DNA from: a virus
IMG/VR virus record: IMGVR_UViG_3300032299_000677
Span: 1-42,951 of that record
Length of the DNA: 42,951 bases
Reading direction: 5' to 3' (one strand)
Of the stretch, positions 8,515-15,759 are shown piece after piece; position 1 is the first letter of the stretch, and each line of letters opens with the position of its first letter. The notes beneath the pieces are model-generated. The model was not told where the DNA came from, ran no database searches, and worked only from the letters and a program-made list of their open reading frames with translations. A program made the translations under genes and the position numbers.

Positions 8515-8692
8515 CTCCGTAATCCTGTCCTTCTTCATTCTCCATCTCGCGCATACGATCGTAGTCTGCATCGCAATGGCATCTCCCGTTGCATGATGCG
8601 CAGTTGTCAACTATTCCGTAGTTGCATTCGCCTGCATCGATGCAGTCTTCTACAGTGTCGCCACAAAAGCCACACACTTCTCTAATTGCCAT
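8504..8692 (-). CDS. Eight-cysteine mini-protein
   Basis: A 62-aa product with cysteines at 7, 10, 17, 23, 31, 34, 38 and 40, followed by a very acidic tail ending YGDDD. The number and pairing suggest two metal sites, zinc or possibly Fe-S. The start at ATG 8692 is favoured by a strong GAGGAGAAGA leader. It overlaps neighbours on both sides (11 nt at each end). I do not recognise the family. Confidence 0.7.
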   Translation of the reverse strand: MAIREVCGFCGDTVEDCIDAGECNYGIVDNCASCNGRCHCDADYDRMREMENEEGQDYGDDD

Positions 8693-9261: not shown

Positions 9262-9635
9262 CAGTGAACTGTCAATCGAGTCTTGTTGATTCGCTTGTAA
9301 AGTTCAGGGTATTCAGCGATAGGGAATGTCTCTTTCACGCTGTCGGTGATCAGCGATGTCTCGCGCCACCTAGCCATGCTTGCAACCTTTGCACCGTGAA
9401 TGTGTAGCTCATCGTTGCTACCAATCATGTCCTTGATGATGGCGTCAACTTCTTTGAGCTCATCCTCGAGACGCTTCTTGGCATCGTAAAGCGAGCTACG
9501 CTTCGCGAGTAGTTCGTTAGCCAATGTTGGGTCGCTAGGTTCTACTGCCTTTACCTTAGCCTTTGATTCTTTTGGCTTGCTAACTAACTTGACCTTGGCC
9601 TCGTCAATTAGATCTCTAGTAGTCGTTGTTTCCAT
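9261..9635 (-). CDS. Coiled-coil protein linked to recombination genes
   Basis: The 124-aa protein has a long helix (about 33-72: LANELLAKRSSLYDAKKRLE and DELKEVDAIIKDMIG) followed by a compact strand-rich end (ELHIHGAKVASMARWRETSL, then YKRINKTRLTVH). This helix plus short beta domain is typical of small phage proteins encoded near RecB/YqaJ-type exonucleases. A role in recombination is inferred from that resemblance and from the operon. ATG 9635 has GAGGAAT upstream. Confidence 0.65.
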   Translation of the reverse strand: METTTTRDLIDEAKVKLVSKPKESKAKVKAVEPSDPTLANELLAKRSSLYDAKKRLEDELKEVDAIIKDMIGSNDELHIHGAKVASMARWRETSLITDSVKETFPIAEYPELYKRINKTRLTVH

Positions 9636-13303: not shown

Positions 13304-13337
13304 GGCCACATCGCATCACATTCCACTCATTCCCTAG
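13304..13337 (-). promoter_or_regulatory. Repeated upstream element, copy 1
   Basis: Contains the shared core CATCACATTCCACTCATTCC (plus-strand reading) preceded by GGCCACATCG and followed by CTAG. Two close copies lie at 13829-13854 and 14695-14729. On the minus strand TAATTGTGGTATAGG follows, a possible -10 region. It lies beyond the terminator of the upstream unit, as expected for a promoter-associated element. Confidence 0.6.
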
Positions 13338-13779: not shown

Positions 13780-13854
13780 TAGCCGGAATTGGCTAACGGT
13801 TTCACTCTACACCATGCCAACGACACAGCGCATCACATTCCATTCATTCCCTAG
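13780..13854 (-). promoter_or_regulatory. Promoter region with repeated upstream element copy 2 and leader hairpin
   Basis: From upstream on the minus strand: the repeated element (13854-13829), TTGGCATG, the -10 TAGAGT (13809-13804), the shared GTGAAACC start region, and a hairpin TAGCC-AATTCC-GGCTA (13795-13780). The block TAGAGTGAA and the AATTCC hairpin repeat the design seen at 13097-13129. Confidence 0.5.
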
Positions 13855-13916
13855 GTTAGAAAATTGCATTTTTGTAGAGCCTTTTTTCGTCATGCTCAGG
13901 ACGCTAGGGGGATAGC

Positions 13917-14072
13917 TTATTCGGTAGGTGGCCAAGCCTCTAGCTCGGCCTCCCATGACCCATCAGGGCCTTTGGAGTGTTCTTCTATTGCGAGCTCGAT
14001 GGCCTCATCCTCTGACTCAGCCTGCACCCAATACGTTGCGGAGTATTCGACTTGCCAGCTTTGCTTACTCAT
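13917..14072 (-). CDS. Small acidic protein of unknown function
   Basis: ATG 14072 has GGGAGG upstream and overlaps the previous stop by 8 nt (ATGAGTAA), giving 51 aa. The sequence (SWQVEYSATYWVQAESEDEA, then IELAIEEHSKGPDGSW) matches a recurrent small phage domain: a beta strand with Trp/Tyr, then xAESEDEAIELA, a helix. Function is unknown. Confidence 0.65.
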   Translation of the reverse strand: MSKQSWQVEYSATYWVQAESEDEAIELAIEEHSKGPDGSWEAELEAWPPTE

Positions 14073-14277
14073 CGCCTCCCTCCCACTCTGATAGGTCATC
14101 ACCGTCGAGGACTGCCATCGCATACTCGATGCGGTCATAATCAGATAGCGTTTCAAGCGTGTCCCATTGTTCTTTAGTTAGGTCATCGTGGTCGAATGTA
14201 ATGAGCTGTGCATTGCGTGCCCAGTCTCCATACTCTCCCACCCATGCCGTGCCAACATAGTGCTTATACTTACTCAT
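14065..14277 (-). CDS. Small acidic protein downstream of structured RNA copy A
   Basis: A 70-aa protein (HYVGTAWVGEYGDWARNAQL, then an acidic tail EWEGGDE). AGGGAGAT precedes ATG 14277. The 83-nt leader between it and the upstream stop holds RNA element A plus a second hairpin reaching close to the ribosome-binding site, so its translation is the likely target of that element. No domain is recognised. Confidence 0.65.
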   Translation of the reverse strand: MSKYKHYVGTAWVGEYGDWARNAQLITFDHDDLTKEQWDTLETLSDYDRIEYAMAVLDGDDLSEWEGGDE

Positions 14278-14294: not shown

Positions 14295-14353
14295 GGCCAC
14301 CGTGGCCATTCGTGCCTGCTCGGGACTTGCACCCGAGTGTCTGCTGGTCAGGC
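14295..14353 (-). ncRNA. Candidate cis-regulatory RNA, copy A
   Basis: Read on the minus strand: P1 GCCTG (14353-14349), an 11-nt bulge ACCAGCAGACA, P2 CTCGGG, loop TGCAAGT, CCCGAG, then P1 closing strand CAGGC (14318-14314). P2 and P1 closing strands are adjacent, so the helices can stack. ACGAAT follows, then a third hairpin GGCCA-CGG-TGGCC (14307-14295), and AGGGAG. Copy B at 15211-15270 keeps the bulge (one base differs) and loop (identical) while both stems change in paired fashion. The P2 loop resembles a tRNA T-loop with G at the second position, but no tRNA surrounds it. Confidence 0.65.
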
Positions 14354-14360
14354 TACCTTG

Positions 14361-14627
14361 CTACCTTAGAGCGTACCCTGCAAGGCTAAGGTGTTGCTTC
14401 AACTCCGCTTTGACTTGCTTCGCAACGTCTCCCCTCCAGTGCTGGAGGTTGCCTAGTGCATACATTACGACGGCAGTGCCCTTGTCGTAGTAGTACATCT
14501 CACTGGCATCGACCATGCTGAGCATTGGCTCAACGTAGTGCTTCGCAATGTTGAACCATGACTTGCCCTTGCCCTCCCTGTAGATAATCTCTGCCAGTTC
14601 GTTCAGTGGCCTTGGTGATTCACTCAT
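14361..14627 (-). CDS. Conserved actinophage-type protein of unknown function
   Basis: ATG 14627 is favoured by GGGAGAG about 5 nt upstream, giving 88 aa. The sequence NELAEIIYREGKGKSWFNIA, VEPMLSMVD and LQHWRGDVAKQVKAELK follows a pattern I know from small actinophage proteins (hydrophobic middle, then WRGxxAKxxKAELK). These have no established role. It is the first gene of a unit whose promoter region holds repeated element copy 3, and it is followed by RNA element A. Confidence 0.7.
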   Translation of the reverse strand: MSESPRPLNELAEIIYREGKGKSWFNIAKHYVEPMLSMVDASEMYYYDKGTAVVMYALGNLQHWRGDVAKQVKAELKQHLSLAGYALR

Positions 14628-14694
14628 GTTTCTCTCCCTATGTTTAGTTGGTTGCCAGCTCGGTTGACCTGACAAGTAAAGCTAATCATGCCAA

Positions 14695-14729
14695 GGGCCA
14701 CATCACATCACATTCCACTCATTCCCTTG
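14695..14729 (-). promoter_or_regulatory. Repeated upstream element, copy 3
   Basis: Carries the core CATCACATTCCACTCATTCC with GGGCCACAT on one side. On the minus strand it is followed by CCCTTGGCATGATTAGCTTT. The TTGGCATG is shared with copy 2 and TAGCTT is a possible TANNNT -10. It lies between a terminator and the gene at 14361-14627. Confidence 0.6.
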
Positions 14730-14740
14730 GATCGGAGCAC

Positions 14741-14783
14741 AAAAAAAACCCTGCCAACACCGAGGGGGGCGGTGTTGGCAGGG
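14741..14783 (-). terminator. Strong rho-independent terminator
   Basis: CCCTGCCAACACC (14749-14761) and GGTGTTGGCAGGG (14771-14783) pair over 13 bp. On the minus strand an eight-T run follows immediately (14748-14741). It ends the unit containing the genes at 15279-15578 and 14791-15189. Confidence 0.92.
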
Positions 14784-14790
14784 CGGTCTT

Positions 14791-15189
14791 TTAGGCTAGA
14801 TACTGAGCTAGGTTTTTAAGCATTGACTGGCTGACAGTCTGCTCTTCACTTAGTTTTAGTATTGCTATGCTCTCGCTGAGGTTCTTGATGTCTGACTGGA
14901 TACTCCAGCTAGGGTGAACCATGTTAGGGTTCTTAGGGTCAAACGGCTTCTCCTTTGGGAACTTAGCCAAGTAAGCGTCTGACACCCTCATCTCGATAAC
15001 GCTGCCGTATCTGTGGTTCATTACCTCGATGATGTGCTTTGGTGCGCCCTCCTTCCACTTTGTAAGCTCTGCATCAAACTCTAGCCTAATTGCCTCTTTC
15101 CTCGCTAGTTGTTTTTCTATGGTTGCTTTAGCTTCTTCTAGCTTAGCAATTAGTGCGACGCGGTTTACCTTTACTGCTGATGATGCCAT
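14791..15189 (-). CDS. Coiled-coil protein downstream of structured RNA copy B
   Basis: The 132-aa protein starts with a long basic helix (residues 5-45, ALIAKLEEAKATIEKQLARK), then HRYGSVIEMRVSDAYLAKFP and a second helix (IQSDIKNLSESIAILKLSEE). It could be a dimeric DNA- or protein-binding factor, but no family is recognised. GAGGAGGA precedes ATG 15189. The leader carries RNA element B, and a strong terminator follows the gene. Confidence 0.7.
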   Translation of the reverse strand: MASSAVKVNRVALIAKLEEAKATIEKQLARKEAIRLEFDAELTKWKEGAPKHIIEVMNHRYGSVIEMRVSDAYLAKFPKEKPFDPKNPNMVHPSWSIQSDIKNLSESIAILKLSEEQTVSQSMLKNLAQYLA

Positions 15190-15210
15190 TTTGTATCCTC
15201 CTCTAGTGAA

Positions 15211-15270
15211 TAGCCTATCTGGCTAATCGTGCCCGCTTGGGACTTGCACCCAAGTGTCTGCTAGTCGGGC
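15211..15270 (-). ncRNA. Candidate cis-regulatory RNA, copy B
   Basis: Minus-strand order: P1 GCCCG (15270-15266), bulge ACTAGCAGACA, P2 CTTGGG, loop TGCAAGT, CCCAAG, P1 closing strand CGGGC (15235-15231), ACGATT, and a hairpin TAGCC-AGATA-GGCTA (15225-15211) about 8 nt before AGGAGG. Compared with copy A, one P1 pair changes from T-A to C-G and one P2 pair from C-G to T-A, both preserving pairing. The third hairpin has a different sequence but the same position. Like copy A it is intercistronic, between the first and second genes of its unit. Confidence 0.65.
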
Positions 15271-15278
15271 GGTGGTGC

Positions 15279-15578
15279 TTAGTTGTCGTTGTATCCCTCT
15301 ACTATGTAGCCGTCTTGGGCAAGCATGTCGCAGAAGTCGTTGTATGCCTCATCGTATGCTATCGGGTCTACACATTGTAATACCCTGAGTGGCTCATAAG
15401 TTAGTGTGCCTATCTTTACCATGCCTGTCATCTCAAACAAGGACTCGGCAAGCCACTCTCTTATCTGCCAGCGAAATACCTTACGGCAGTCAAGACAAAG
15501 GTCATTGTCCGTAGCGTTCGGCTGTTCGCAGCTGTCGCAAGGTGTGGTGCTTACTTCTTCTAGTGCTACCTGGTTCAT
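15279..15578 (-). CDS. Zinc-ribbon protein of unknown function
   Basis: ATG 15578 follows GAAGGGG at 7 nt, giving 99 aa; an in-frame ATG at 15671 lacks such a site. Residues 14-31 hold C14-x2-C17 and C28-x2-C31, a classic four-Cys zinc ribbon (PCDSCEQ, LCLDCRK). The rest (FRWQIREWLAESLFEM, then YNDFCDMLAQDGYIVEGYND) is helical and acidic. It is the first gene of the leftmost minus-strand unit next to the divergent regulator. A DNA- or protein-contact role is inferred. Confidence 0.7.
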   Translation of the reverse strand: MNQVALEEVSTTPCDSCEQPNATDNDLCLDCRKVFRWQIREWLAESLFEMTGMVKIGTLTYEPLRVLQCVDPIAYDEAYNDFCDMLAQDGYIVEGYNDN

Positions 15579-15759
15579 TTGTTTACCCCTTCTAGTTTTG
15601 TTTGCTCGCCCTGGTTTGGGCTTGCTAGGTATAGCTAAACACGCATGTTGTCCTGCTGTCCACGTTTCCATTCATTATCTAGCATCAAACCTCTATACAC
15701 TGCACCACAACTATGTCTACTATGCATGTATACTGGTAGCACAAGATAGGAGACTTATA
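15579..15759. promoter_or_regulatory. Divergent promoter region between early and regulator units
   Basis: The minus-strand side has a degenerate fourth copy of the repeated element (15661-15681, CGTTTCCATTCATTATCTAG) followed by TTTAGCTATACC, like copy 3. The plus-strand side has TATACT at about 15729 as a possible -10, next to the palindromic ATGCAT. The regulator at 15760 could bind here. All assignments are by eye. Confidence 0.4.

Follow-up and report, generated by a model that had tools for sequence, protein, structure and literature searches.

The window, ie the whole 42,951-nt stretch of viral DNA that was analysed, carries on its minus strand two pairs of small genes, and in each pair a 40-nt RNA element lies between the two co-directional genes, where the initial annotation had placed it (Table 1). 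The stop codon of the upstream gene ends 7 nt 5' of the first helix (P1) in copy 1 and 8 nt 5' of it in copy 2, and the start codon of the downstream gene follows 36 and 41 nt, respectively, past the end of P1. The two gene pairs are separated by a strong terminator, a near-perfect 15-bp inverted repeat with a minus-strand T-run, which ends the pair holding copy 2. A repeat of about 30 nt (AGGGAATGAGTGGAATGTGATG...) has three copies in the intergenic DNA of the early region and may serve the early units as a promoter or operator. A megablast search of positions 13000-37000 of the window against 50,697 phage records gave no relative.

Copy 1 reads GCCTG-ACCAGCAGACA-CTCGGG-TGCAAGT-CCCGAG-CAGGC and copy 2 reads GCCCG-ACTAGCAGACA-CTTGGG-TGCAAGT-CCCAAG-CGGGC. 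Both fold into a 5-bp P1, an 11-nt linker on one side only, and a 6-bp P2 with a loop of 7 nt, the closing strands being adjacent. Between the copies a T-A pair in P1 becomes C-G and a C-G pair in P2 becomes T-A, so that both changes are compensated, and there is a single difference among the unpaired bases. The common fold, the compensatory changes and a further hairpin after both copies (P3) had all been proposed from the letters of the sequence, and each was recovered here by sequence comparison and folding. Across the family described below the placement of P3 is conserved and its sequence is not. By folding energy alone the copies stand out only slightly (z -1.4 for the 40-mers, about -2 when the flanks are included), and the case therefore depends on covariation across relatives.

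Two covariance models were used. R1 had 70 rows, including both window copies; R2 was made from the matches gathered with R1, with the window rows left out. Applied to the 43-kb window, R2 found exactly two matches, copy 1 with 62.9 bits and copy 2 with 59.7 bits, at E-values of about 1e-13 and 9e-13 which are rough because the model calibration was short. A generic descriptor matched the same two sites and none in shuffled sequence. These matches rule out a chance origin for the two copies.

Table 1. Positions of the elements, their parts and neighbouring features. Positions refer to the window unless a locus is named.
Feature	Position	Strand	Basis or remark
Element copy 1 (tRNA top half)	14314..14353	minus	sequence, folding, covariance model
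Copy 1 P1	14353-14349 with 14318-14314	minus
Copy 1 linker	14348-14338	minus	D-loop-like
Copy 1 P2	14337-14332 with 14324-14319	minus
Copy 1 T-loop	14331-14325	minus	UGCAAGU
Copy 1 3' tail	14312..14313	minus	A73-C74-like
Copy 1 P3	14291..14311	minus	hairpin 3' of the element
Gene upstream of copy 1	14361..14675	minus	ORF as listed; phrog_13953, function unknown; likely true start ATG 14627
Gene downstream of copy 1	14065..14277	minus	70 aa, no family match
Element copy 2 (tRNA top half)	15231..15270	minus	sequence, folding, covariance model
Copy 2 P1	15270-15266 with 15235-15231	minus
Copy 2 linker	15265-15255	minus
Copy 2 P2	15254-15249 with 15241-15236	minus
Copy 2 T-loop	15248-15242	minus
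Copy 2 3' tail	15229..15230	minus	A73-C74-like
Copy 2 P3	15208..15228	minus	hairpin 3' of the element
Gene upstream of copy 2	15279..15671	minus	phrog_37123, function unknown
Gene downstream of copy 2	14791..15189	minus	132 aa, no family match
Terminator	14784-14748	minus	separates the gene pairs
Repeat of about 30 nt	13304-13335, 13813-13855, about 14690-14732 (-)		early-region intergenic stretches
Vipr-like RAMP gene (phrog_4652)	L091:5945-6520	minus
(GGYNN)n guide tracts interleaved with the element	L091, L121, L280, L402, L405, L413, L415, L417, L437 (Trine), L438 (LittleE), L440 (MakoManhole)		spacers

A phage family and its distribution

A search for homologues in actinophages and freshwater viromes, as suggested in the initial annotation, produced a covarying family which now comprises 488 distinct elements with 353 different cores from 191 loci, and the cores keep the fold. 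The first scan employed a 15-base pattern taken from the linker and the loop and picked out 76 viral stretches; both full stems, in differing sequences, were present at 28 of 66 distinct places, and about half of the distinct places were stemless chance matches. The later collection came from a relaxed scan and from BLAST of the phage records mentioned above. As copies were collected with seeds the frequencies of the classes given below are biased, whereas the seed-based test of covariation is independent of those frequencies. Whole-record searches with the covariance model gave between 1 and 15 copies per carrier record. Members are found in phages of Streptomyces (Camvirus and other Arquatrovirinae), Mycobacterium, Gordonia, Bifidobacterium and Actinomyces, in freshwater phages and Riemerella phages, and in low-GC contigs. 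One of these contigs has DNA in common with Riemerella phages only. The phages R4, Giles, phiC31, SV1 and TM4 had no significant match to the family.

Host chromosomes were positive in two of 396 Actinomycetota genomes, with only 15 candidates scored per genome, and a strict pattern matched once in a 257-Gb genome scan. The element is therefore mainly one of phages, and a host chromosomal family is rejected. One bacterial-genome match of 41 bits (L209, G309:C1:2219660-2219704) has consistent tertiary pairs (GCGCG ATTGGCAACCT CCACGG TTCGAGG) and possibly represents a prophage.

No Rfam 15 family was matched at the gathering threshold in the window or in eight copy-rich loci, nor at permissive settings, up to E 5, around both window copies, in keeping with the earlier failure to assign the element to a class. 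A Riemerella-like copy gave a weak match to preQ1 (18 bits, E 0.31), which was rejected as below threshold and unlike the preQ1-I fold. Cross-matching to real tRNAs was likewise rejected, the maximum in D29, which carries tRNA genes, being 16.4 bits against 40-71 for members. ARAGORN called no tRNA in the window, and no tmRNA either there or in 12 loci. In Endor2 (MT711979) an annotated tRNA-Arg (HUN44_00067, 44378-44460) overlaps an element and the end of a CDS, and ARAGORN makes a matching tRNA-Arg call in phiScoe10; the Endor2 annotation is probably a mis-annotated element, and the observation also covers 8583-8665 on the minus strand of L433. No description of the element was found in the open literature searched. 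tRNA-like structures in viral RNA and organellar tRNA punctuation are already known kinds; what is new to the sources searched is an RNA of 40 nt that mimics the elbow, lacks an anticodon arm and recurs between the cistrons of phages and between VIPR guide RNAs (see below).

Covariation and the tRNA-like elbow

The hairpin loop is a T-loop, UGCAAGU in the window and UUCGAGU elsewhere, which is closed by G53-C61 in 220 of 220 and has the form T-K-C-R-A in all. Standard pairs occupy 99.9% of the pair cells in the 70-sequence alignment, and double changes occur in 13 of the 15 pairs. Pairing in P1 and P2 belonged to the selection criteria and pairing in the linker did not; since the stems were required by selection, only features outside them count as independent. 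In the 70 rows N2-N8 is CG in 48, AU in 10, GC in 8 and UA in 3, N9-L7 is AU in 51, GC in 14, CG in 2 and UA in 1, and N10-L6 is CG in 67 and GC in 3. Across the 353 cores, with the linker letters unconstrained, all four Watson-Crick forms are seen both for N2-N8 (CG 226, GC 77, AT 37, TA 7) and for N9-L7 (AT 232, GC 92, CG 18, TA 5), and N10-L6 is CG in 347 and GC in 6. N4-L2 is G-T in 303 of these cores, A-G in 49 and GC in one. G5-C(L3) is present in 220 of 220, the loop C having been fixed in the scan and the linker, G5 included, left free.

This covariation supports four contacts beyond the secondary structure, namely N2-N8, N9-L7, N10-L6 and N4-L2. N4-L2 and G5-C(L3) correspond to 18-55 and 19-56 in tRNA numbering, ie to the R18-K55 and G19-C56 contacts of the elbow, and by eye the linker A-N-Y-R-G-C-A can be aligned with A14-R15-Y16-G18-G19-N20-A21 of the D-loop. 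The linker had initially been described as a one-sided bulge of 11 nt; its length stands, but it is not single-stranded, the covariation identifying it as a D-loop equivalent that pairs with itself and with the hairpin loop, as in the tRNA elbow. The loop had been likened to a T-loop without a tRNA body. The first part of that description was correct. The second was not, for the linker docks on the T-loop in the manner of a D-loop, and the upper half of a tRNA body is therefore present.

The contacts were also examined with equally long seed patterns applied to one collection. Seeds which kept the contacts gave folded sites at 28 of 66, 120 of 159, 89 of 134 and 71 of 95 places (308 of 454 in total). 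Those which broke N9-L7 gave none in 24, and those which broke N4-L2 none in 35 (0 of 59 in total). The seeds AGCAGACA, GGCAGACA and GGCAGGCA lack the 5' side of N2-N8, and N2-N8 is C-G in 237 of 237 folded sites of those seeds.

The extent of 40 nt first given for the element holds as far as it goes, and the element continues 3' to A73-C74. With the lengths of P1 and P2 left free, the stack measures 11 bp in 307 of the 355 cores ending R73-C74, 12 bp in 45, and some other length in three. Its division between P1 and P2 varies (5+6, 6+6, 5+7, 6+5 and 7+5), and so do the linkers. Position 73 is A or G in 344 of the 353 cores and position 74 is C in 342, while C75 is found in only 25. G1-C72 is present in 314 and A(-1) in 242, with T1-A72 often replacing G1-C72 in the low-GC copies. 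Gaps missed by the model in Papyrus, Predator and phiScoe10 hold divergent members, including one with the linker AACGGTTTTCG and the loop TTCGATT, one with a 10-nt linker, a P1 of 6 bp and a P2 of 5 bp, and one with a real D-stem. As these divergent linkers build one overall shape, what is conserved is the shape of the tRNA top half and not a binding pocket.

The likeness to tRNA thus comprises the T-loop with its closing G53-C61 pair, the two elbow contacts, the D-loop-like linker and a coaxial stack ending R73-C74. In contrast to tRNA, the element is embedded in mRNA, has no anticodon arm or CCA and usually no D-stem, and its linker pairs with T-loop positions 59-60. The 7-bp acceptor stem is also absent, P1 having 5-6 bp and P2 6 bp compared with 7 and 5 in tRNA, and the two are joined by the 11-nt linker. 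The tRNA-like domain of tmRNA has the same order of acceptor stem, stemless D-loop and T-arm. However, tmRNA also contains a tag reading frame, a chain of pseudoknots and CCA, none of which is found in the 40-nt element.

Placement between cistrons and in VIPR arrays

Among 335 cores with an upstream ORF, 124 sit 6-9 nt past its stop codon and six at 0-5 nt, compared to four and 16, respectively, in an opposite-strand control. The mode is 7 nt, with a sharp lower limit at 6. The next start codon is mostly 30-55 nt away, and the genes downstream are diverse small early genes. In phiScoe10 nine early gaps between co-directional genes measure 80 nt or more; eight of them contain a copy and the other contains a D-stem variant. 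In Papyrus all 14 copies are on the coding strand. In most actinophage copies P3 starts 0-4 nt past C74 (mean z -1.64, control +0.07). It is absent from the low-GC copies, and is therefore regarded as accessory. U-runs 3' of P3 were seen in four of 352 cases, and an intrinsic terminator was rejected on account of their rarity. Stop-codon readthrough was also rejected, as the frame is open past the stop in copy 1 but a TAG lies inside the linker of copy 2. Complementarity of the core to the ribosome-binding site did not rise above that of shuffled sequences (z -0.1).

In several GC-rich actinophages there are rows of four to seven elements, 95-136 nt apart and gene-free between, whose spacers have a 5-nt period, (GGYNN)n. 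The gene next to these arrays belongs to phrog_4652; its profile matches PDB 36pp, 'SUSP1 Vipr protein', with an E-value of 2.3e-48, and its predicted model (pLDDT 92.7) resembles Csm3-type RAMP subunits. Array loci with this gene are VIPR loci. A (GGYNN)9-16 tract and the Vipr RAMP gene are both present in LittleE, Trine, MakoManhole, L091, L280, L413 and others. A crude detector was applied to LittleE, Trine, MakoManhole and 14 contig loci. Of the 52 tracts in these, 29 have a tRNA-like element after them and 23 have one before them, and the element begins mostly 7-16 nt after the guide tract.

VIPR is described in a 2026 preprint, according to which the guide RNAs are built from GGY and NN units in alternation and end in a structured 3' tail with a pseudoknot, the tails of the SUSP1 clade being reported as pseudoknots, and some array types are interspersed with hammerhead ribozymes (PMC13142463). 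The actinophage arrays have the same guide tracts beside a Vipr gene, and in them the tRNA-like element stands in arrays of a kind in which other VIPR systems reportedly have the ribozymes. The words 'tRNA', 'RNase P' and 'processing' do not occur in the main text of the preprint (PMC13142463). In wV8, which belongs to the SUSP1 clade, the search for a T-loop element was negative. The window has neither a GGYNN tract nor a Vipr match, and most element carriers, the window included, had no Vipr match in the DNA searched. VIPR is therefore one use of the element and not its general role.

Possible roles of the element

The element may be a punctuation signal which mimics tRNA and brings in an enzyme of tRNA maturation, in all likelihood RNase P, for the cutting of polycistronic phage transcripts. 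This is the preferred proposal, to which we would give an even chance. RNase P acts as a ruler for the stack of T-arm and acceptor stem, measured from the elbow (PMC4919913). It is favoured here because the elbow, the stack of 11-12 bp and R73-C74 are what the enzymes of tRNA maturation measure. The factor common to the boundaries of mRNAs and of guide RNAs is the need to make RNA ends. In the mechanism proposed, the element, a minimal tRNA mimic that phages place between cistrons and some of them also between VIPR guide RNAs, would mark off the parts of their long transcripts. Host RNase P would read the elbow and the acceptor end and cut immediately 5' of P1, some 7 nt beyond the upstream stop codon. 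The upstream RNA would be separated by this cut, and the downstream RNA would gain a base-paired 5' end, reinforced by P3, which should resist 5'-end-dependent decay. We infer the cleavage, the identity of the enzyme and the effect on stability from the fold and its placement.

Several features count against RNase P. The usual stack, at 11 bp, is one short of the canonical 12; C75 is rare although RNase P favours RCC; P3 lies so near to C74 in most actinophage copies that base pairing between the tail and RNase P RNA could be impeded; and in low-GC copies G1-C72 often gives way to T1-A72. With slightly less assurance than the mechanism itself, and short of an even chance, it may be suggested that a minimal tRNA mimic has been spread by DNA phages of Actinomycetota and Bacteroidota, at least, and hijacks the tRNA maturation of the host (RNase P) for a general system of punctuation, in which polycistronic early mRNA is cut into units and VIPR guides are released. 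This would be the phage equivalent of the tRNA punctuation of mitochondria.

Mitochondrial t-elements and tRNA punctuation, and the mascRNA of MALAT1, are likewise tRNA-like structures at the boundaries of coding or long RNA. They are read by tRNA maturation enzymes, and cleavage has been shown for these organellar or nuclear examples; they are larger, whereas the element is a 40-nt part of phage RNA whose cleavage is predicted. The sites between the early genes of T7 are also repeated intercistronic hairpins. There host RNase III cuts the polycistronic transcript at long hairpins without tRNA features, which are present only in the element. If it is a processing signal, the element shows one way in which phages that lack RNase III-type sites could punctuate their transcripts, and offers a possible route of guide maturation in actinophages for VIPR, an RNA-guided system described only recently. 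This 40-nt RNA, whose near-complete covariation extends to the tertiary contacts of the elbow, has gone unlisted despite up to 15 copies per genome in groups as well known as Streptomyces Camvirus. As a very small natural mimic of the tRNA elbow it could be used in structural work on RNase P, RNase Z, the CCA-adding enzyme and the ribosome, and it is a potential tool for transcript processing in Actinobacteria.

The main alternative to RNase P arises from the tight stop-codon spacing and the 3' tails of VIPR guides. The tightest spacing is that to the upstream stop, and the element could belong to the upstream RNA. It would then be a 3'-end module, a cap against 3'-to-5' exonucleases that is cut or trimmed after R73, by RNase Z or by trimming, in the manner of the VIPR tails. 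We regard this as unlikely, though a serious competitor. The floor of 6 nt looks as if the element were set as close to the stop as a terminating ribosome allows, the element follows the guide tract in the arrays, and guide RNAs with a structured pseudoknot tail are described in the VIPR preprint (PMC13142463). The rarity of C75 would also be in accord with RNase Z, for which CCA is an antideterminant (PMC4919913). However, RNase Z has no need of the near-invariant C74, a second hairpin at a conserved position (P3) continues 3' of the element, and on the 5' side G1-C72 and A(-1) are conserved as well.

Less probable again, and in our view distinctly doubtful, is an RNA that stays uncut and acts as a compact roadblock or as a site bound by the ribosome or by a protein of the phage or its host, controlling translation or stability for each cistron. 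The dense tertiary fold, the position just past the footprint of a terminating ribosome and the single copy at each cistron boundary would all suit such a role. It leaves unexplained, however, G53-C61, R18-G19, R73-C74 and the ruler of 11-12 bp, as well as the presence of the element between VIPR guide RNAs, where there are no cistrons.

Two adjacent stem-loops also form the put RNA of HK022, and the succession of element and P3 in early operons, with U-runs so rarely following, could be taken for a cis-acting antitermination or anti-Rho RNA of that type. Sites of the put type occur once or twice per operon, near promoters. The element precedes small genes one after another, reaching 15 copies in a genome, and its low-GC copies have no P3, which makes a put-like role very improbable.

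The initial annotation offered a riboswitch, a ribosome-access switch or a processing element. The last accords with the findings here. A conserved fold 30-55 nt 5' of start codons did suggest a switch, either of the small-molecule or of the ribosome-access kind, but both are already largely refuted and we give them hardly any weight: the downstream genes are diverse, copies are many in one genome, the core is not complementary to the ribosome-binding site, divergent linkers share the overall shape alone, and the VIPR arrays are gene-free. A recent duplication or a drifted DNA repeat, which two copies in one genome might have indicated and which had been named as a possible refutation, is itself refuted by 353 distinct cores that keep the fold with compensatory changes in nearly every pair, tertiary pairs included, and by the lack of folded sites among the contact-breaking seeds.

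On the minus strand of L022 (about 9288-9470, reverse complement) and in L222 (Riemerella phage PJA1, 1526-1707, minus strand) two of them flank a stretch of about 95 nt. The stretch is part of the only DNA common to L022 and Riemerella phages (about 87-92% identity) and matches no Rfam family; it is possibly a released noncoding RNA. Two elements, in L287 and L294, have an 18-nt linker which forms a small hairpin, and its loop, TTCTAAG, is like an anticodon loop (CUA).
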